NCBI RefSeq assembly: GCF_947500325.1
Contig: NZ_CANMRQ010000005.1
Span: 186,001-250,000 of the forward strand
Source: an uncultured Lacinutrix sp.
Lineage (GTDB): Bacteria; Bacteroidota; Bacteroidia; Flavobacteriales; Flavobacteriaceae
DNA: 64,000 nt
Direction of reading: 5' to 3'
Shown here: piece by piece, positions 51,014 through 61,140 of the stretch
Layout: every line of letters begins with the position of its first letter
Numbering within the stretch: the first letter of the stretch is position 1
Position numbers and translations under genes: made by a program
The notes under the pieces: generated by a model
Seen by the model: only the letters and a program-made list of their open reading frames with translations
What the model was told of the DNA's origin: nothing
Databases searched by the model: none

Positions 51014-51769
51014 CTATTCTAACCAATTTTTAAAATCTTTTACTCGTTCTCTGGCTACAATAACCTCTTGCTCTTTATAAGAACCTAACTTTATTTGTAA
51101 TCTCGAATTAGTATAACTAACCATATCTTTTATAGCCTGGATATTGACGTAAAACTTTCTATTAATTCTAAAGAATTGTGATGGTTCAAGTTCATTTTCT
51201 AAATTATCAAGTGTTGTATCTAAAAGATAATTTCTTCCATCTGTTGTATGAAGGTATGTGCCTTTATTTTCACTGAAGAAGCATTCTATATCATCAATAT
51301 TTATCAGTTTTAAATGCTGTCCCACTTTTACCGAAAAACGCTTTTTATACTCACGCTCTATAGGATTAATTAGTAGTTTTTTAATATCATTAAAATCTAA
51401 AGTAACACTTTGTTTTTCTGGTACTCTGTTTTTAAATTTAGATACTGCTTTCTCTAATTCTTCATCATCTATTGGCTTCAATAAATAATCAATACTATTT
51501 AATTTAAAGGCTTGCAATGCATACTCATCATAAGCTGTTGTAAAAATAATAGCCGAATTAATATTTACTTCATCAAAAATTTCAAATGACAAGCCATCAC
51601 TTAACTGTATATCTAAAAAAATTAAATCTGGATGTTCATTATTTTGAAACCATGTTATAGATTCTTCTACAGAATGCAACATAGTTTCCGCTTGTATATT
51701 TATATTTTGCAGCATACGTTGTAAACGTCTTGCCGATGGTTTTTCATCTTCAATTATTAGTACTCTCAT
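51014..51769 (-). CDS. LytTR-family response regulator
   Basis: 251 aa. Receiver domain with phosphoacceptor Asp53 in LIFLDIQLSDG and conserved Lys in YLLKPIDDEEL, then a LytTR DNA-binding domain (about 140-250), with FFSENKGTYLHTTDGRNYLLD and FFRINRKFYVNIQAI. Last gene of an operon with its kinase. LytTR domains bind tandem 9-bp sites 21 bp apart; two such sites in this window (54633, 58498) are its probable targets. Confidence 0.92.
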   Translation of the reverse strand: MRVLIIEDEKPSARRLQRMLQNINIQAETMLHSVEESITWFQNNEHPDLIFLDIQLSDGLSFEIFDEVNINSAIIFTTAYDEYALQAFKLNSIDYLLKPIDDEELEKAVSKFKNRVPEKQSVTLDFNDIKKLLINPIEREYKKRFSVKVGQHLKLINIDDIECFFSENKGTYLHTTDGRNYLLDTTLDNLENELEPSQFFRINRKFYVNIQAIKDMVSYTNSRLQIKLGSYKEQEVIVARERVKDFKNWLE

Positions 51770-51801: not shown

Positions 51802-52149
51802 TTATTCCCAACGTTTTTTATCTTCTTCCATATATTTATCGATTTGACGTTGTTCCCATTGTTTTCCAAATAAAAAGTTAGGCCCAAAAACACTAATAAA
51901 ATGAAAAACTAAGCCTATACCCCAAAAGAATGCTGTTGAGAATACTCTAAAACTCCAAAAGTTTTCGTCTGCATCCATATTTCTTACAATCATGAATATG
52001 ATAAATATGTTAACTAAAACATACCATAGCGCATGCCAGTAAAAGCCAACGATTTTTTCAACCTTTTTTTTAGCTCTTATATAAGCCTCTTCACGCTCAA
52101 AATCGCGTTGCTTATTATCTTGATATGGTTCTATTCTACTGTCTTTCAT
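51802..52149 (-). CDS. 2TM domain protein
   Basis: 115 aa from Met52149 (an open frame reaches 52200, but that would overlap the kinase gene by 44 bp; with Met52149 the gap is 7 bp). Two membrane helices (about 31-53 and 64-90) with a conserved tail FGKQWEQRQIDKYMEEDKKRWE. It repeats the C-terminal 2TM module of the kinase next door. It may pair with the kinase as an accessory subunit (inference). Confidence 0.8.
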   Translation of the reverse strand: MKDSRIEPYQDNKQRDFEREEAYIRAKKKVEKIVGFYWHALWYVLVNIFIIFMIVRNMDADENFWSFRVFSTAFFWGIGLVFHFISVFGPNFLFGKQWEQRQIDKYMEEDKKRWE

Positions 52150-52156
52150 AATAGTC

Positions 52157-53497
52157 TTATTTATAGCGATTGTTTTGTTCTTCTTCCATGAATTTTTCAA
52201 TCTTGCGTTTTTCCCAATCCCGTCCTAAAATACCATCATTCACAAATACTTTATAGGCGTGAAAGGCTATTCCAATTCCCCAACCAATGGCAGAAAACCA
52301 GAACCATTTAAACTCCCAATAGGTTCTATAATTAATAAATATTAAAAAAGGAATAACAAAGCAATATGATATTACATTATAGTAAAATCCTTTTAATTCC
52401 TCAACATGCTTACGTGCTCTCACGTAACTATCATCAAATTGTTTTTCTGGTAATTGTCTCATAATTGTTATTTGTTTTGTAAGCATTGGAATAGAAACTT
52501 TAAAATTAGTTTTATCCTCTATTATACTTACTTGTCTGTTTGTTAATAATTTGTAGCGTTGTCTAATATTATCTAAACCAACACCACTACTCTTCTTTAC
52601 CACTTGTTTTGTTTGCAAATTATTTTCTACAATTAATTGTCCGTCTCGTTCGTAAATTTTAATATGTAGTGGTTTATTTGCTGTTACTATATTATGCTTT
52701 ACTGCATTTTCTAATAGTAATTGTAAAGACAACGGCACAACTTTACTATCTGGATTCGAAGCGTGTTCTGGAATATCGAATACTATACTATCTTCAAATC
52801 GCATTTTTAATAAAGACATGTATGTTTTTGCAAATTGTAACTCTTCGTCAACAGTTACTAGATCTTTATTTTTTTGCTCTAAAACATAGCGATATACTTT
52901 AGATAAACTTGTTGTAAATTTTTGAGCACTATCTGGATTCTCTTCAATTAGACTGGTTAAAACATTTAAACTATTAAATAAAAAATGCGGATCTAACTGG
53001 TTTTTTAAAGCATCGAACTTTGCACTAGCTGTACCAGCTATAACTTTTTGCTCTTTTATTTTATTTTTTTGATAACGATTATAAAAATATATGACATGAA
53101 AAATAATTACAATAGTCATAGTTATCCACAAACCAAATTGATAATATTCAAAACGTTCATTTGCTATAAACTCATTAAAAGAATAATCTAAATAAATAAT
53201 ATAAGTGAATGTTCTTAAAAGAAATAAACCTATTAATGTAATTAGAACAGATCCTATAATGCCAATAACTATACGTTTAATTCCTTCTTTTTCTTTCCAT
53301 TGTCTTCTCTCTAAAAATGCAAAATATCTAGTATTAGAAAACCCTAAAACAAAAGCGTATAATTGATAAAATGCAAAAGTAATTAAGTAAGCTTGTGTAG
53401 ACTTGTGCTCATAATCTTCAAAAAACACGGTTCCAACTATAAATACTAGAGTACCTACAATAAAAGTGATTACTATTTCTTTTACTAGTTTATTCAT
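52157..53497 (-). CDS. LytS-type sensor histidine kinase with C-terminal 2TM domain
   Basis: 446 aa. Four membrane helices (5-145), HisKA_internal kinase with LKNQLDPHFLFNSLNVL (phospho-acceptor His171), N box LLENAVKHNI, and G box GVGLDNIRQRY. Residues about 355-446 form a 2TM module (SYVRARKHVEELKGFYYNVISY, then ILGRDWEKRKIEKFMEEE). It phosphorylates the LytTR regulator encoded downstream. The signal is unknown. Confidence 0.9.
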   Translation of the reverse strand: MNKLVKEIVITFIVGTLVFIVGTVFFEDYEHKSTQAYLITFAFYQLYAFVLGFSNTRYFAFLERRQWKEKEGIKRIVIGIIGSVLITLIGLFLLRTFTYIIYLDYSFNEFIANERFEYYQFGLWITMTIVIIFHVIYFYNRYQKNKIKEQKVIAGTASAKFDALKNQLDPHFLFNSLNVLTSLIEENPDSAQKFTTSLSKVYRYVLEQKNKDLVTVDEELQFAKTYMSLLKMRFEDSIVFDIPEHASNPDSKVVPLSLQLLLENAVKHNIVTANKPLHIKIYERDGQLIVENNLQTKQVVKKSSGVGLDNIRQRYKLLTNRQVSIIEDKTNFKVSIPMLTKQITIMRQLPEKQFDDSYVRARKHVEELKGFYYNVISYCFVIPFLIFINYRTYWEFKWFWFSAIGWGIGIAFHAYKVFVNDGILGRDWEKRKIEKFMEEEQNNRYK

Positions 53498-53511: not shown

Positions 53512-54144
53512 TTATTCTTTACAAGATTTTGATGCTTCCTCTGCTCTATCTTGCCCCCAATTAGGGTGAAATGCTGTTTCTGGTTTAAAGTTAGCAAAAA
53601 GTTTTAAGGCCTTATCGAATTCTTTGCAAAACGGCTTGGTATCCTGTCCAAAATATCTGGCGCTACCAATATTCCATTCTGCTCTATTTAATACCACTCT
53701 TGGATTATTTGGATTTAATTTATAAGCTTTCTCATATAACTGTGCGACTTTTGGAGCTAGCGTCATACCATATTTAGCACCATCACTAGATACATATACA
53801 GTATGTAATAAAGCTTGCATAACTAGAATCTCTGAGTTCTCTTTAGAAATTGCTGTAGCATCATTAATAAAATCTTGTGCGCGTTTTAATTGAGCATCGA
53901 GCTTTTCTGCATCTTTCAACTTAGTAAAACCATCTATAATTAAAACTTGCGCAGCATAATAAGGTGGTAACCAATTGTCTTGCTCTGCGCTAGCAATACG
54001 CTCAAAAAGGTTTACTGCATCGTCTGGTTTATTTTCTCCCCAAAGTGTTAAAGCTTTTTGCATACCTTTCTCATAATTCGATTGTGCTTGAGTTTCTAAT
54101 TGTGTGCTTAGAAACATTACGATTAATAGTGCTAGTCTATACAT
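53512..54144 (-). CDS. Secreted helical-repeat (TPR-like) protein
   Basis: 210 aa with signal peptide ending near TQLETQA. The rest is helical, with TPR-like repeats (KPDDAVNLFERIAS, AQVLIIDGFTKLKDAEKLDAQLKRAQ, KAYKLNPNNPRVVLNRAEWNIG). It lies between DUF2141 and the kinase in the LytS/LytTR operon, 14 bp from the kinase gene. A role in sensing or binding in the periplasm is plausible; the family is unnamed to me. Confidence 0.75.
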   Translation of the reverse strand: MYRLALLIVMFLSTQLETQAQSNYEKGMQKALTLWGENKPDDAVNLFERIASAEQDNWLPPYYAAQVLIIDGFTKLKDAEKLDAQLKRAQDFINDATAISKENSEILVMQALLHTVYVSSDGAKYGMTLAPKVAQLYEKAYKLNPNNPRVVLNRAEWNIGSARYFGQDTKPFCKEFDKALKLFANFKPETAFHPNWGQDRAEEASKSCKE

Positions 54145-54155
54145 AATAATTAATT

Positions 54156-54569
54156 TTATAGTTTAATATTTTGAATTACATTTTTGTCTTTTACTGTAAA
54201 TACAGCATCTTCCCATTTTGGCGGTCCCATAATACCTTTTGCATTATTTGAAGTACCATAATCTTCTTTTGGAATACCAAATATAAAAGTGTCCATTTTT
54301 TTATTATCATTAGCATCGTGAAATAATGAAATGGCATAATCTCCAGGTTCTATATTTGTAAATGTTACACTTGCTGTAGACTGTGATACTTTTTCTAACT
54401 TACCTTTTATACGTTTTTTTAAAAAATTAGATTCATTATCATATAATCCAATAACTAAAGTCCCTTCTATAGTATTTATATTAGAAATGTTTACAACAAT
54501 GTTATGATTTTGAGCTTTTACATTCTGAAAGCTGAATACAGTAATTAAGAGTAGTAAAATAGATTTCAT
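54156..54569 (-). CDS. Secreted DUF2141 protein
   Basis: 137 aa. Signal peptide ends near FQNVKAQ. The body matches the DUF2141 beta-sandwich (GTLVIGLYDNESNFL, PGDYAISLFHDANDNKKMDTFIFGIPKEDYG and a conserved MGPPKWEDAVF), common as a small secreted protein in Bacteroidota. First gene of the LytS/LytTR operon. Upstream are a tandem LytTR-type site and a -7-like box, so it is probably autoregulated by the operon's regulator. Confidence 0.85.
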   Translation of the reverse strand: MKSILLLLITVFSFQNVKAQNHNIVVNISNINTIEGTLVIGLYDNESNFLKKRIKGKLEKVSQSTASVTFTNIEPGDYAISLFHDANDNKKMDTFIFGIPKEDYGTSNNAKGIMGPPKWEDAVFTVKDKNVIQNIKL

Positions 54570-54591
54570 GATTAGTGGTTTTATGTTGGTA

Positions 54592-54599
54592 CAAATATC
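54592..54599 (-). promoter_or_regulatory. -7-like box of the DUF2141-LytS-LytTR operon
   Basis: GATATTTG on the minus strand, one mismatch to TAnnTTTG at the first position. It is 33 bp from the LytTR tandem site; the TonB-receptor promoter has the same gap with CATCTTTG. Confidence 0.45.
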
Positions 54600-54632
54600 T
54601 AATAGTAATCTTCATTTTTAAAAAGCAATACA

Positions 54633-54662
54633 CCGAACTGTCATTTTTATATGCTGAATTGT
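54633..54662 (-). promoter_or_regulatory. Tandem LytTR-type binding site upstream of the LytS/LytTR operon
   Basis: On the minus strand, ACAATTCAG (54662 to 54654) and ACAGTTCGG (54641 to 54633), 21 bp apart start to start. ACAGTTCGG fits the published LytTR pattern [TA][AC][CA]GTTN[AG][TG] fully; the distal copy differs at one position. Proximal end 64 bp from the DUF2141 start codon. Confidence 0.65.
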
Positions 54663-54958: not shown

Positions 54959-55300
54959 ATGAAAAATCTAATTTTAACTTTCTTCTTACTAATAATCAGT
55001 CTTTCTATATATAGTCAAAACTCTAATTCGCTATTAGACTCAAAAACGGCAACTATTATTGAGAAAGCTATTAAAAAACATAACACTAATATAGTATTAG
55101 CTAATTCAAGCTTAAACTGTAATTTAAAATCTGTTAATATTAATACTATGCAGATTAATAATTCTAGTGTCTCTAAAATTAAAAATAATACTAAAGACTT
55201 TTTTAGAAAGTTTTTTGGCCGCAATCCTATACATTTAACTTCTATAGATCTATCAAAGAACAATTACTCTATATTTCCTGGAGAAAACGCTAATGTTTAA
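54959..55300 (+). CDS. Small secreted protein of unknown function
   Basis: 113 aa. Clear signal peptide, MKNLILTFFLLIISLSIYSQ. The mature part is rich in Asn, Ser and Lys with a basic segment KDFFRKFFGRNP; no family recognised. Upstream lie a palindrome, a -7-like box and a structured leader, so expression is likely strongly controlled. No homologous neighbours; no stable hairpin terminator follows. Confidence 0.6.
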   Translation: MKNLILTFFLLIISLSIYSQNSNSLLDSKTATIIEKAIKKHNTNIVLANSSLNCNLKSVNINTMQINNSSVSKIKNNTKDFFRKFFGRNPIHLTSIDLSKNNYSIFPGENANV

Positions 55301-55451
55301 TAACATTTAACTAAACACATTACAAATAGTACAGAATTCCCTTACTAATAATTAAACTACTTTTAGTTTCTTTACAAATAAGATAAACTAAATTACTAAC
55401 GGAAACCTACAAGAAAGTCCCTCGTCTTATTAAGTTCCTTTACTTTATATT

Positions 55452-55748
55452 ATGGCAACTTTTGAAGAACTTGCGAGTAAAATAGAAAATGAAATTCGTT
55501 CTTTTTCCAGCTTTAAAATAGGAAAAACTGGGAGAAATATAGTAGATCGCTATAACGATGTATATGCTAATACTTATAATAACTATAAGGTAGTAGCTTA
55601 TTCAAAAAACTTAAATACTATTGAAGATTTTGAAATGTATTTAATACAACGCTTTAATACTTTAATAGGTTGCAAAAATAAATACATTGAAGATATTGAG
55701 ACAACTGATACTGAATATTATATTTTATATTTAATGTTTAATCACTAA
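55452..55748 (+). CDS. Small protein with GIY-YIG/T5orf172-like segment
   Basis: 98 aa, no signal peptide. FKIGKTGRNIVDRYNDVY followed by YKVVAYSKNLN and FEMYLIQRFNTLIGC resembles the latter part of GIY-YIG nucleases (conserved Lys-Ile-Gly-Lys-Thr, Arg, and Glu before the last helix). The first GIY strand is not visible, so it is a minimal or degenerate version. Function unknown; isolated between two other small genes. Confidence 0.55.
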   Translation: MATFEELASKIENEIRSFSSFKIGKTGRNIVDRYNDVYANTYNNYKVVAYSKNLNTIEDFEMYLIQRFNTLIGCKNKYIEDIETTDTEYYILYLMFNH

Positions 55749-55818
55749 CCTAATTATTTACATAAACAAAATTTAAAGATTATTAAACGGGTCATTTTAT
55801 TTGTATCTTTTTAGAAAA

Positions 55819-56223
55819 ATGATGAAAACTCAATTTATAATACTAGCCATATTCATTAATATTTTAAGTTACTCCCAAGAAGATAAAAGATTGTCAACTA
55901 TAGATTTTGTAGAAGTTTTAAATGATAATAAAGATGAAGTATTATTCTATTATCAAAACAATTGGCAAGTACTAAGAGAAATCGCTTTAAAAAAGGGTTA
56001 TATCCATTCATTTCAAATTTTAGAAACTCTAGCAACTCCAGAAGCACCATATCATTTTATATTAATAACTACTTATTCTAACCAAACACAATATGATAAA
56101 AGAGAAGTGCATTTTAGCGCAATAATTAAGGCTCAAGATGGTTTAAAATTACTCAATACAAAACAACCAAATGATTTTAGAAAGATTGTTATTAGAAAAT
56201 ATGTTATAAAGCATTGGTATTAG
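55819..56223 (+). CDS. Small secreted protein of unknown function
   Basis: 134 aa from Met55819. An open frame begins at a TTG at 55801, but the sequence MMKTQFIILAIFINILSYSQ is a natural signal peptide. The mature part has mixed charge, with YQNNWQVLREIALKKGYIHSFQILE and a C-terminal FRKIVIRKYVIKHWY. No family recognised. It converges on the TonB-receptor gene with a 52-bp gap. Confidence 0.6.
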   Translation: MMKTQFIILAIFINILSYSQEDKRLSTIDFVEVLNDNKDEVLFYYQNNWQVLREIALKKGYIHSFQILETLATPEAPYHFILITTYSNQTQYDKREVHFSAIIKAQDGLKLLNTKQPNDFRKIVIRKYVIKHWY

Positions 56224-56275: not shown

Positions 56276-58429
56276 TTATAAATTATCCAACTGATTATCT
56301 GTTCCTTTTTCACTAATCGTCCAGAAGAAACCAACAAAAAAGAATTGATCTGCAGCAGGTTTTAAGGCTCGTCTTGCAAAATTATTATTTAAATCTGGAG
56401 TATTTGCATACTGATATCCATTAACGTTTTTAAAACCTAAAACATTATTTATAGAGAAATACAATATCTTTTGCTGACTTAGTAAGTATGCCCAATTGAC
56501 ACTTAAACTATTAAAACCTTTTGTTTTTGCATTTAAAAATCCTGTTTCATTTGGATTAGTATAAGTTCTCCCTGATGCATAGGCATAACTAAGTCCTACT
56601 TGACTTTTCCAATCTTCAATCCAGTATTTACCAACAATATTTAAATTATGTCTATTTGCAAAATTTGGTTGCGCTGCATTTGGGTAATTTCTATAATCTC
56701 GTTCAGTATCTAAAAACGAATAACTTACCCAATAATCTATATTTTTTATGCTTTTACTATCACGATAAAATAAATCTAAACCTTTAGCAAAACCATTTCC
56801 AGCATTGTTATAATTACTATCAAAACTCGTAAAACTTGTATCGTATTTTACTAATTTATTGTAATTTTTATAATAGGTTTCTGCTCTAAAAATGCGTCCA
56901 TCATTATTATATTGATAGTTTAAAATATAATGCTGCGTTTGCTCTGCATTTAAGTTTTGTTCAAATTTTAAAATACTACTGTTAGGGTTTTGATAAAAAT
57001 TACCGTAAGCTAACGATACTTGACTTTTTGCTCCCGTTTTGTAGGCAAAAGATACTCGTGGTGATATATTAGTTTCTTTAAACAACTCACTATATTCAGC
57101 TCTTAATCCTGCTTTTAAAGCTAATTTTTTAGAGAAAATAATATCAGCTTCAGAAAATACAGCACTAATATTATTATTATAACCGTATTCTACTGGAGCT
57201 ATAAAATCATCTTGGTAGTTTTCATTAAAATTAGTAGTAAAATACTCTGCTCCAAAATTTAGTTTAAAACGACTACTAAAACTTTTCCTTAATTTAAATT
57301 TAGCATGTATTGAATTCTCTGTATCATTTATATCACTTGCGTCAATCCCTACTCTTGTTTTAGCATTTGTATAACTTAAACCTGTGGCTAATTTCCAACG
57401 ATTTTCTAATATTGCTTTATAAGAACCATTAAAATAAAGGTTACTATTTTTTAATTTAAAACGTAAACCATCTGCATTATTTATATCTTCTTGAATAAGT
57501 TCAAAGTTAGAGGCGTCAAACCCTGTATATAGTTTTAGTAAACCATTGTTAGTTTTTTGTCTAAATACGGTCTCTCCAGATGCGGTTTGAAATGGTTTTA
57601 TCCAATCATTTCTATCTTTAAAAATTGCTAAATATGGTGCTAGATTTATATAAGATGCGTTAACACTTAAAGAACTTTCTTTCCATTTTTGCGTATTACC
57701 TAAAGTAGCACCAACACTCATTATTCCAATATCTGTTTTTTCCTGATCTGGTTCATCTATAGTGTTTAGTAGCAACACACTGGATAATGCCTGACCATAT
57801 TCGGCACTATAACCACCAGTTGAAAAGGTTATACCATCAAACAAAAAAGGAGAATAACGTCCACGAGTTGGAGCATTATTAGTTGTTGGCGTATATGGTG
57901 TAAATACACGAATACCATCAATAAATATTTGAGTTTCTTCTGCTTCTCCACCACGAACAAATAATCTACCATCTTCGGCTACAGTTGTTGTTCCTGGTAA
58001 TGTTTGTAATGCTCCTACAAAATCACCTAACGCACTAGCTGTAGTAACCACATCTAAAGGTTTTAAAACAGACACCTTACTATTATCACCGGCTGCAAAT
58101 GTTCCAGCAGACAACACTACAGTTTCTAGTGAGTTGACATCTTCTCGTAATTTAATATTTAAATTATTTAGTGTAGATACATCACTTGCCATTTGAAATG
58201 ACTCGTATGAAACATAAGATGCTATCAATATTTGTGTTCCAGTTTCGGTCGTTTTAAAATTAAACATACCTTTTTCGTTAGTTGTACCACCATCATAAGT
58301 GCCATCTAAATACACATTGACACCTTGTATTGGGTTGTTTTTAGCATCTGTAACTATTCCATTTATAGTAGTTTGAGCAGAGAGTTGTAGTGTGATTAAT
58401 ACTAATAATGCTTGTAAAAAAAATTTCAT
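56276..58429 (-). CDS. TonB-dependent outer-membrane receptor with CarboxypepD_reg-like domain
   Basis: 717 aa from Met58429 (MKFFLQALLVLITLQLSAQ is a clear signal peptide; an upstream ATG at 58474 would add 15 polar residues and lie upstream of the promoter box). N-terminal beta-sandwich (TINGIVTDAKNNPIQGVNVYLDGT), then plug (AGTFAAGDNSKVSVLKPLDV and RLFVRGGEAEETQIFIDGIRVF) and a beta-barrel to the C-terminus. No SusD-like partner adjoins it, so the substrate may be an ion, siderophore or peptide. Upstream is a tandem LytTR-type site matching that of the LytS/LytTR operon. Confidence 0.9.
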   Translation of the reverse strand: MKFFLQALLVLITLQLSAQTTINGIVTDAKNNPIQGVNVYLDGTYDGGTTNEKGMFNFKTTETGTQILIASYVSYESFQMASDVSTLNNLNIKLREDVNSLETVVLSAGTFAAGDNSKVSVLKPLDVVTTASALGDFVGALQTLPGTTTVAEDGRLFVRGGEAEETQIFIDGIRVFTPYTPTTNNAPTRGRYSPFLFDGITFSTGGYSAEYGQALSSVLLLNTIDEPDQEKTDIGIMSVGATLGNTQKWKESSLSVNASYINLAPYLAIFKDRNDWIKPFQTASGETVFRQKTNNGLLKLYTGFDASNFELIQEDINNADGLRFKLKNSNLYFNGSYKAILENRWKLATGLSYTNAKTRVGIDASDINDTENSIHAKFKLRKSFSSRFKLNFGAEYFTTNFNENYQDDFIAPVEYGYNNNISAVFSEADIIFSKKLALKAGLRAEYSELFKETNISPRVSFAYKTGAKSQVSLAYGNFYQNPNSSILKFEQNLNAEQTQHYILNYQYNNDGRIFRAETYYKNYNKLVKYDTSFTSFDSNYNNAGNGFAKGLDLFYRDSKSIKNIDYWVSYSFLDTERDYRNYPNAAQPNFANRHNLNIVGKYWIEDWKSQVGLSYAYASGRTYTNPNETGFLNAKTKGFNSLSVNWAYLLSQQKILYFSINNVLGFKNVNGYQYANTPDLNNNFARRALKPAADQFFFVGFFWTISEKGTDNQLDNL

Positions 58430-58456
58430 ATTGTTCGTCGGTTTTGTTTGATGATT

Positions 58457-58464
58457 CAAAGATG
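58457..58464 (-). promoter_or_regulatory. -7-like box of the TonB-receptor gene
   Basis: CATCTTTG on the minus strand, one mismatch to TAnnTTTG at the first base, 27 bp from the start codon at 58429. It is part of a GATGC/GCATC inverted repeat (58461-58475). Confidence 0.45.
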
Positions 58465-58497
58465 CTTTAAGCATCCCTTTTTTTAAATTTATAATTA

Positions 58498-58527
58498 CCG
58501 AACTGTGACTTTTTGAAGATGAATTGC
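58498..58527 (-). promoter_or_regulatory. Tandem LytTR-type binding site upstream of the TonB receptor
   Basis: On the minus strand, GCAATTCAT (58527 to 58519) and ACAGTTCGG (58506 to 58498), again 21 bp apart. The proximal half-site is identical to that upstream of the LytS/LytTR operon. It also lies 31 bp upstream of the divergent YhhN gene. Confidence 0.65.
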
Positions 58528-60645: not shown

Positions 60646-61140
60646 TTGAATAAAGAACTTGAACATAGTTTTGTAGAATTACTGGAGAAACACCAGAATA
60701 TAGTGCATAAAGTGTGCCGTCTGTACACTAATAATTACGATGCACATAATGATTTGTTTCAGGAGATAACAATTCAACTTTGGCGAGCGTACCCAAAATT
60801 TCGAGGTGACGCTAAGTTTAGTACTTGGATGTATCGAGTTGGGTTAAATACCGCTATTACTCTCTATAGGAAGTCTAAACGACGCATTAACACATCAGAA
60901 TTTGATGCTGTTCAATTTAAAATCAAGGCTGAAGAATATGATGATACCGAAGAGCAACAATTAAAGCTCTTATATAAAGCTGTACATCAATTAAACGATA
61001 TTGAAAAAGCCCTTGTGTTCTTATATTTAGAAGACAAGAACTATAAAGAAATTAGTGAAACAATGGGTATTAGTGAAGTAAATGCAAGAGTGAAGATGAA
61101 TAGAGTAAAAACTAAACTAAAAACCATATTAAATCCGTAA
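60646..61140 (+). CDS. ECF-family RNA polymerase sigma factor (second)
   Basis: 164 aa. Region 2 with CRLYTNNYDAHNDLFQEITIQLWRAY and region 4 with YLEDKNYKEISETMGISEVNARVKMNRVKTKLK. The start is TTG: the frame has an in-frame TAA at 60628-60630 and no ATG between. The operon continues with a membrane protein (4 bp gap) and two glycine-zipper proteins. An ECF-like promoter candidate lies 24-52 bp upstream. Confidence 0.92.
   Translation: MNKELEHSFVELLEKHQNIVHKVCRLYTNNYDAHNDLFQEITIQLWRAYPKFRGDAKFSTWMYRVGLNTAITLYRKSKRRINTSEFDAVQFKIKAEEYDDTEEQQLKLLYKAVHQLNDIEKALVFLYLEDKNYKEISETMGISEVNARVKMNRVKTKLKTILNP

Follow-up and report, generated by a model that had tools for sequence, protein, structure and literature searches.

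Introduction

The window analysed here, a stretch of 64,000 nucleotides from the genome of an uncultured Lacinutrix sp. (Flavobacteriaceae), contains the gene of a TonB-dependent receptor, which ends about 1.7 kb beyond the promoter of a two-component operon on the same strand. A first-pass annotation had pointed out that the promoters of the two units look alike and proposed that they form a regulon. The locus thus raises the question whether this likeness is fortuitous or marks a common regulatory site, and, in the latter case, which protein may bind it and what the circuit may serve.

Layout of the receptor and operon promoters

Both the receptor site (58457–58527, minus strand) and the operon site (54592–54662, minus strand) contain two 9-bp half-sites with a period of 21 bp, after which a [CG]AnnTTTG box follows exactly 33 bp on. 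The operon site, whose layout is equal to that of the receptor site 3.9 kb away, lies upstream of five minus-strand genes (DUF2141, TPR, kinase, 2TM and LytTR regulator), which apparently form an operon (Table 1). The identical proximal half-site (ACAGTTCGG), the shared 21-bp period and 33-bp gap, and the first-base mismatch of the receptor −7-like box, all listed in the first-pass annotation, were found as described. Its view of the distal half-site as a degenerate copy has to be corrected, because this half-site has a majority sequence of its own, CAATTCATC, across 49 distinct exact sites; the receptor distal half-site fits this majority and that of the operon (CAATTCAGC) deviates.

Table 1. 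Features of the two promoters and of the genes downstream of them (positions in the window)
Feature	Sequence	Position	Strand	Basis and remarks
Distal LytTR half-site, receptor promoter (candidate)	GCAATTCAT	58519..58527	−	Family majority ACAATTCAT; sequence and alignment of sites
Proximal LytTR half-site, receptor promoter (candidate)	ACAGTTCGG	58498..58506	−	Sequence and alignment of sites
T-rich −33-like element, 9–10 bp downstream of the repeats	ATTT	58485..58488	−	Alignment columns; −33 role putative
−7 box, receptor promoter	CATCTTTG	58457..58464	−	For TAnnTTTG; first-base departure
TonB-dependent receptor, 717 aa		56276..58429	−	Carboxypeptidase-like domain, plug, barrel; Pfam, model, orthologues
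Distal LytTR half-site, operon promoter (candidate)	ACAATTCAG	54654..54662	−	
Proximal LytTR half-site, operon promoter (candidate)	ACAGTTCGG	54633..54641	−	
−7 box, operon promoter	GATATTTG	54592..54599	−	
DUF2141 protein		54156..54569	−	PF09912; beta-sandwich model behind signal peptide, pLDDT 89.8
TPR protein, apparent signal peptide		53512..54144	−	PF14559/PF13428 just above cut-off
LytS-type histidine kinase, C-terminal 2TM domain		52157..53497	−	PF06580 (90.9 bits), PF13239
Separate 2TM-domain protein		51802..52200	−	PF13239; listed open frame overlaps kinase end
Response regulator, receiver and LytTR domain, proposed activator		51014..51769	−	PF00072 (51.9 bits), PF04397 (82.8 bits); orthologues

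In the available text of PMC9723704, the −7 box of flavobacterial sigma-A promoters is TAnnTTTG at −12 to −5, and with this placement transcription is predicted to start near 58452 for the receptor gene and near 54587 for the operon. If transcription starts 12 bp past the first base of the −7 box, the centre of the repeats falls at −60.5. As described in the accessible parts of the cited papers, LytTR sites comprise repeats of 9–11 nt with 11–13 nt between them (PMC4847170), the usual distance between the repeats is 12 bp and they tend to stand 10 bp before the −35 element (PMC6193735), and the repeats bound by AgrA are centred near −60 (PMC4227749). Here, two repeats of 9 nt are separated by 12 nt (period 21), and the geometry of the candidate site agrees in each respect with that of these known LytTR sites, for the centre provided that transcription starts as predicted.

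The full pattern (repeats, 33-bp gap and AnnTTTG) has two matches in the window, which are the two sites, and none in 100 shuffles. Throughout the 4.57-Mb genome, CARTTC-N15-CAGTTCGG has two exact matches, both before the receptor and operon units, while the reversed control pattern has none. A match of the repeat pair with one mismatch (C32:23173) was unsupported by the site model (see below) at E up to 0.001. With three mismatches allowed, the repeat pair was no more frequent in the window than expected by chance (4 found, 3.59 expected), thus the claim depends on the exact form of the pair and its conservation.

Conservation of the site in the family

A search for the exact repeat pair, made irrespective of genes, covered 149 family genomes (148 genera). 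This blind scan found 59 places in 54 genomes, and the reversed control gave one match in total. The 57 places outside the source genome were tallied by eye: 19 precede receptor orthologues, 19 precede the two-component operon or, in G080, lie within it, four precede other DUF2141 genes, five precede other genes (two of them DUF2807-like), and ten lie inside long open frames. The first-pass annotation had named a pattern as common at random positions as upstream of genes as a refuting outcome, and the tally turned out the opposite.

After leaving out the ten open-frame places and a doubtful intergenic one (L094), 49 distinct sites were aligned, including both window sites and one from a same-genus genome (G156). 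Their majority sequences are CAATTCATC for the distal and ACAGTTCGGT for the proximal repeat, the proximal core and part of the distal repeat being fixed by the search pattern itself. Three T columns follow 10 bp beyond the repeats (97, 79 and 79%), and an NAnnTTTG box starts exactly 33 bp past the proximal repeat in 44 of the 49 sites and at 34 bp in one, its first base being C in 53%, G in 36% and T in 6%.

A weight matrix of the repeats, from which the −7 box was left out, was trained on the 49 sites and applied to the promoters that could be read in the family sample (receptor, 76 of 83 genomes; operon, 97 of 118 genomes) together with 4 receptor and 12 operon promoters from further relatives; the regions outside this promoter set are mostly those of more distant regulators. 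A score of at least 5, a threshold picked after the scores were seen, was reached by 77/80 receptor and 97/109 operon promoters, and by 57/60 and 78/90, respectively, of those outside the training set. At the first threshold, 12, the counts were 53/56 and 89/109, and the column-reversed matrix never scored above −9.9 on these 56 receptor and 109 operon promoters. Among the promoters below 5 (3/80 receptor, 12/109 operon), some were missed owing to misplaced gene starts (G159 is matched by the site model and G071 has an exact site), while G001, G010, G011 and G129 have diverged. The box was found at 33 bp in 72 of the 77 receptor sites and 92 of the 97 operon sites.

A second sample comprised 80 loci on named genome contigs carrying the regulator (Lacinutrix, Algibacter, Olleya, Psychroserpens, Flavivirga, Aquimarina and others); it overlaps the first, as some of these contigs belong to the same assemblies. 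At a score threshold of 8, a site was found in 78 of these loci, the remaining two being L380, where only 313 bases of contig precede the regulator, and L402. The box lies at 33 bp in 107 of the 117 named-sample sites, and of the ten others at least two are chance hits with neither gene nor box.

Co-occurrence of the site with the regulator and the receptor

Orthologues of the regulator (E up to 1e-60) were detected in 118 and those of the receptor (E up to 1e-120) in 83 of the 149 family genomes, the copy of G030 being distant (34% identity). The receptor was found only alongside the regulator (83/83), which is also present in 35 of the 66 receptor-less genomes. Both genes are on one contig in 60 of the 83 genomes, and all 53 regulator–receptor pairs lying within 30 kb are on the same strand.

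A sequence profile of the site with its promoter (the site model; E up to 0.001), the training sites of which came from genomes of the same sample and the filters of which lose weak matches, found matches in 115 of the 149 genomes. The regulator is present in 112 of these 115 genomes versus 6 of the 34 without a site (p 3e-21). Genome size was considered as a confounder and rejected, since the effect stays in large complete genomes, though weaker: restricted to the 113 genomes that reach 2.5 Mb and 90% completeness, the table was 100, 1, 4 and 8 (p 8e-9), and for the 102 genomes of 3.0 Mb or more it was 93, 1, 4 and 4 (p 8e-5).

Three genomes have a site without a detected regulator (G006, G046 and G051). 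In G006, where the receptor was not detected either, three sites were found (L458, L463 and L467): one is next to YhhN but is followed by no receptor gene, one precedes a DUF2141 gene and one a DUF2807-like gene, so that they look like relics of loss. The contig bearing the G051 site is 5.3 kb long, and next to the site stands a sigma-factor gene resembling that at 60646 of the window; the receptor and regulator may be absent because the assembly is 88% complete. In G046, the match falls within a long open frame. Conversely, six genomes have the regulator and no profile match (G001, G011, G061, G048, G094 and G116). With more permissive filters, the first three of these gave weak matches (E 0.002 to 0.04), that of G001 before the kinase. 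In a sample of 119 genomes of the order, 41 have a regulator match and 23 a site; some members of other families (G236, G264, G163, G222 and G161) have a site at a distance of about 3 kb or less from a regulator of about 50% identity, and many genomes with such regulators gave no site match.

The comparative evidence, that is, the conservation of the site, the matrix survey and the co-occurrence with the regulator, strongly supports the proposal that the two-component operon and the TonB receptor gene are joined in a regulon by a common LytTR-type site. The first-pass annotation was also right in that the layout common to the two promoters is hard to explain by chance, as indicated by the two exact genome matches, the empty shuffles and the conservation. 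A chance resemblance of two AT-rich promoters, with which the shuffled-like frequency of the three-mismatch repeat pair would agree, is vanishingly improbable in the face of the two exact genome matches, the blind scan, the weight-matrix survey, the regulator co-occurrence and the named sample.

A different LytTR protein as a possible binder

The source genome has 27 LytTR matches as against 0 to 9 in the nine large, complete family genomes that lack this regulator, which amounts to an expansion. Such a number leaves room for the reading that another LytTR regulator of the genome binds the site and the neighbouring pair is merely one of its targets. The nine regulator-less genomes are informative here: eight of them have 2 to 9 other LytTR proteins (PF04397), and in seven of these eight the profile finds no site at E up to 0.001 (the exception is G006), hence the view that any LytTR protein will do was rejected. 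The ninth, G041, has no LytTR match and is therefore uninformative on other LytTR binders. As the site moreover stands before the operon of this very regulator in 97 of the 109 promoters read, we consider a different binder quite unlikely.

First base of the −7 box

Among 107 boxes of the named sample the first base is G in 69, C in 37, A in one and T in none, whereas T comes first in 106 of 258 AnnTTTG matches, some of which are not promoters, in 539 ordinary upstream regions taken from these loci (p 3e-20). In the matrix survey T was first once among the receptor boxes and once among the operon boxes. This near-absence of a first T is as expected of activator-dependent promoters. Receptor boxes prefer C (57/72) and operon boxes G (50/92). 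Three of 28 boxes of further targets begin with T, each of them upstream of a beta-lactamase-like gene (L326, L454 and L456), thus the non-T first base is no universal rule across all targets. The use of C in the receptor box, G in the operon box and T in beta-lactamase-like targets is perhaps a tuning of promoter strength. As far as the available text of PMC9723704 goes, the sites share the frame of the flavobacterial sigma-A −7 box at −12 to −5 and differ from TAnnTTTG in that the first base is C or G at almost every operon and receptor site; that text names no activator class of this kind.

The receptor and the operon proteins

The start of the receptor gene was set at 58429 rather than 58474 from the signal peptide and the orthologues. 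Its plug and beta-barrel domains (PF07715 and PF00593) agree with the barrel model and the Foldseek matches. Assignment to the SusC/RagA subfamily was rejected, as TIGR04056 gave 47.2 bits against a cut-off of 368.25 and matched the N-terminal part only; so was a FecA-type surface-signalling receptor, because there is no STN match in Pfam and the N-terminal domain is carboxypeptidase-like. A single-sequence search found no solved relative, and the profile search yielded, besides one chance-level hit, just the N-terminal domain of a SusC homologue (E 3e-7). The fold search returned generic TonB receptors (BtuB, Cir, FrpB, OprC and FepA) with TM about 0.6, the plug being poorly modelled. Judged by the model, the receptor is a normal TonB barrel, and the predicted fold gives no clue to the cargo. 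Linkage to YhhN was also discarded as a clue, since YhhN lies within 600 bp upstream of only 6 of 63 receptors. Past the last barrel strand, the receptor ends in NQLDNL, four residues of which are invariant in 52 orthologues.

In the operon, the PF06580-class kinase neighbours the response regulator, and the neighbours were also looked at across relatives. The regulator has a receiver domain, which sets it apart from the receiver-less HdrRM type, and it falls below the BtsR equivalog cut-off (NF008677, 110 bits versus 246). Hydropathy gives the kinase membrane segments without a long outer loop. Its 2TM domain lies C-terminal to the catalytic part, and in many relatives the kinase is followed by additional 2TM-like open frames; the 2TM module is possibly a membrane sensor or a partner module. 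The fold search with the beta-sandwich model of DUF2141 gave no useful hit (best E-value 0.005). Three small ORFs (113, 98 and 140 aa) at 54959–56223, between operon and receptor, have no Pfam match.

Further members of the regulon

At E up to 0.001 the source genome has three profile sites, the two of the window and a third at C31:16765-16843 (41 bits) before a second DUF2141 gene (L325 1501-2073; Pfam), which is situated between an OmpA-like porin gene and genes that, judged by eye, resemble dps and oxyR. Twenty further sites were read, chosen among the profile matches listed. Eight of these precede DUF2141 genes, in seven cases followed by a LysR-type gene (oxyR-like by eye); the same order, a site-bearing DUF2141 gene ahead of a similar LysR-type gene, is met again in other genera. 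The other twelve of these 20, again among the matches listed, precede a DUF2141–TPR unit (1), DUF2807-like units (5), beta-lactamase-like genes (2) and other or no genes (4). Pfam confirmed DUF2807 for L438, DUF2141 for L440 and beta-lactamase for L454, the remainder being assigned by likeness. DUF2807-like units with a site were found in at least eight genomes (L438, L441, L447, L452, L453, L086, L119 and L467); in L453 one short gene stands between the site and the unit, and in G006 the DUF2807-like gene with the site is behind a PspC-like gene (by eye). A kinase paralogue with an upstream site occurs in three same-genus genomes (G153, G154 and G155; sequence read for L328).

The first-pass annotation had suggested that the circuit senses or takes up one ligand. 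This is left unproven by a regulon wider than one receptor, which also takes in paralogues of DUF2141 and, in relatives, genes of the DUF2807 and beta-lactamase-like types, and by the generic barrel of the receptor.

Discussion

What the sequences themselves show is that the sites exist, how they are spaced and conserved, and that they co-occur with the regulator. Judging from these, the response regulator very probably activates the receptor gene, its own operon and the second DUF2141 gene through the repeats. The membrane kinase would phosphorylate the response regulator, and the phosphorylated regulator would occupy the two direct repeats as paired subunits, recruiting RNA polymerase to a promoter with a poor −7 box. 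Lacking the first T of this box, the promoter is proposed to be weak by itself and quiet without the activator. The regulator would thereby switch on its own operon, a positive feedback, along with the gene of the TonB receptor and, elsewhere in the genome, the second DUF2141 gene. We infer binding, activation, positive feedback and the choice of this LytTR protein rather than a paralogue as the binder, the activator mechanism being drawn from the geometry and from AgrA-type activators; the sequence by itself may also be compatible with repression at the sites.

Several known systems resemble this arrangement, as far as the available text of the respective papers shows. AgrA, acting at P2/P3 of the Staphylococcus aureus agr locus (PMC4227749), is likewise a LytTR response regulator with two direct repeats, centred near −60 as is predicted here, and it combines a core promoter having a built-in defect with an autocatalytic loop, as proposed here. 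There, the defect is in the spacer length and here in the first base of the −7 box, and the AgrA system has a peptide signal and targets unrelated to those described above. YpdAB (PMC4847170) and BtsR are LytS/LytTR two-component pairs with very few targets, as here; in contrast to them, our regulator scores below the BtsR cut-off, the kinase has a C-terminal 2TM domain, and the main target among several units is an outer-membrane TonB receptor. HdrRM/BrsRM of Streptococcus mutans (PMC6193735) share the 9-bp repeats 12 bp apart, the position about 10 bp before −35 and the autoregulation, but their regulators have no receiver and work with a membrane protein, whereas here a receiver and a kinase are present. 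No description of the site or the regulon, nor of this detail of the −7 box, was found in the available text of the open-licence literature. Within this scope the regulon is new, its kind, LytTR two-component control, is known, and its main target is unusual.

Two readings of the signal deserve to be weighed. The kinase may sense the state of the membrane, and the DUF2807/toastrack proteins, DUF2141, the TPR protein and the receptor would then adjust the envelope. DUF2807-like units bear the site in at least eight genomes, with a PspC-like gene in G006, and toastrack and PspC genes have been linked to envelope stress, sometimes together with LytTR, in the accessible part of PMC11237479; the kinase, with its membrane segments and its lack of a long outer loop, would suit such a sensor. 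A TonB receptor is, however, an odd member of a stress regulon, the source genome has no DUF2807 site among its three profile sites, and Pfam was run for one of the eight DUF2807-like loci (L438), the others being recognized by likeness. On balance we regard this reading as plausible at somewhat less than even chances, and it is slightly preferred over the second one, according to which the pair senses an external nutrient and induces a receptor importing this nutrient or a related compound. E. coli YpdAB, which switches on one gene upon sensing pyruvate (PMC4847170, available text), would be the model, having the same protein classes (LytS-type kinase and LytTR regulator), and the receptor is the most constant target measured outside the operon. 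The regulator nevertheless stays far below the BtsR cut-off (110 versus 246 bits), the regulon includes DUF2141, DUF2807 and beta-lactamase-like genes, and the receptor's top fold matches are various unrelated TonB receptors with TM about 0.6, making nutrient scavenging a doubtful, if conceivable, purpose.

With the slightly preferred membrane-state reading, it is tentatively suggested that a circuit spans the Flavobacteriaceae in which LytTR-driven promoters with a C- or G-first −7 box tie an orphan receptor to membrane-state sensing by a 2TM kinase, toastrack and DUF2141 genes being co-regulated. Since the same arrangement is found across the bacterial family, it looks like a real, testable gene-control circuit. 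The promoters concerned are candidates for a class of activator-dependent promoters in Bacteroidota, whose −7 box is off consensus at one fixed position. An orphan receptor present in 83 and an orphan two-component system present in 118 of the 149 genomes thereby gain a common, exactly located regulatory site, which makes both the signal and the cargo directly testable.
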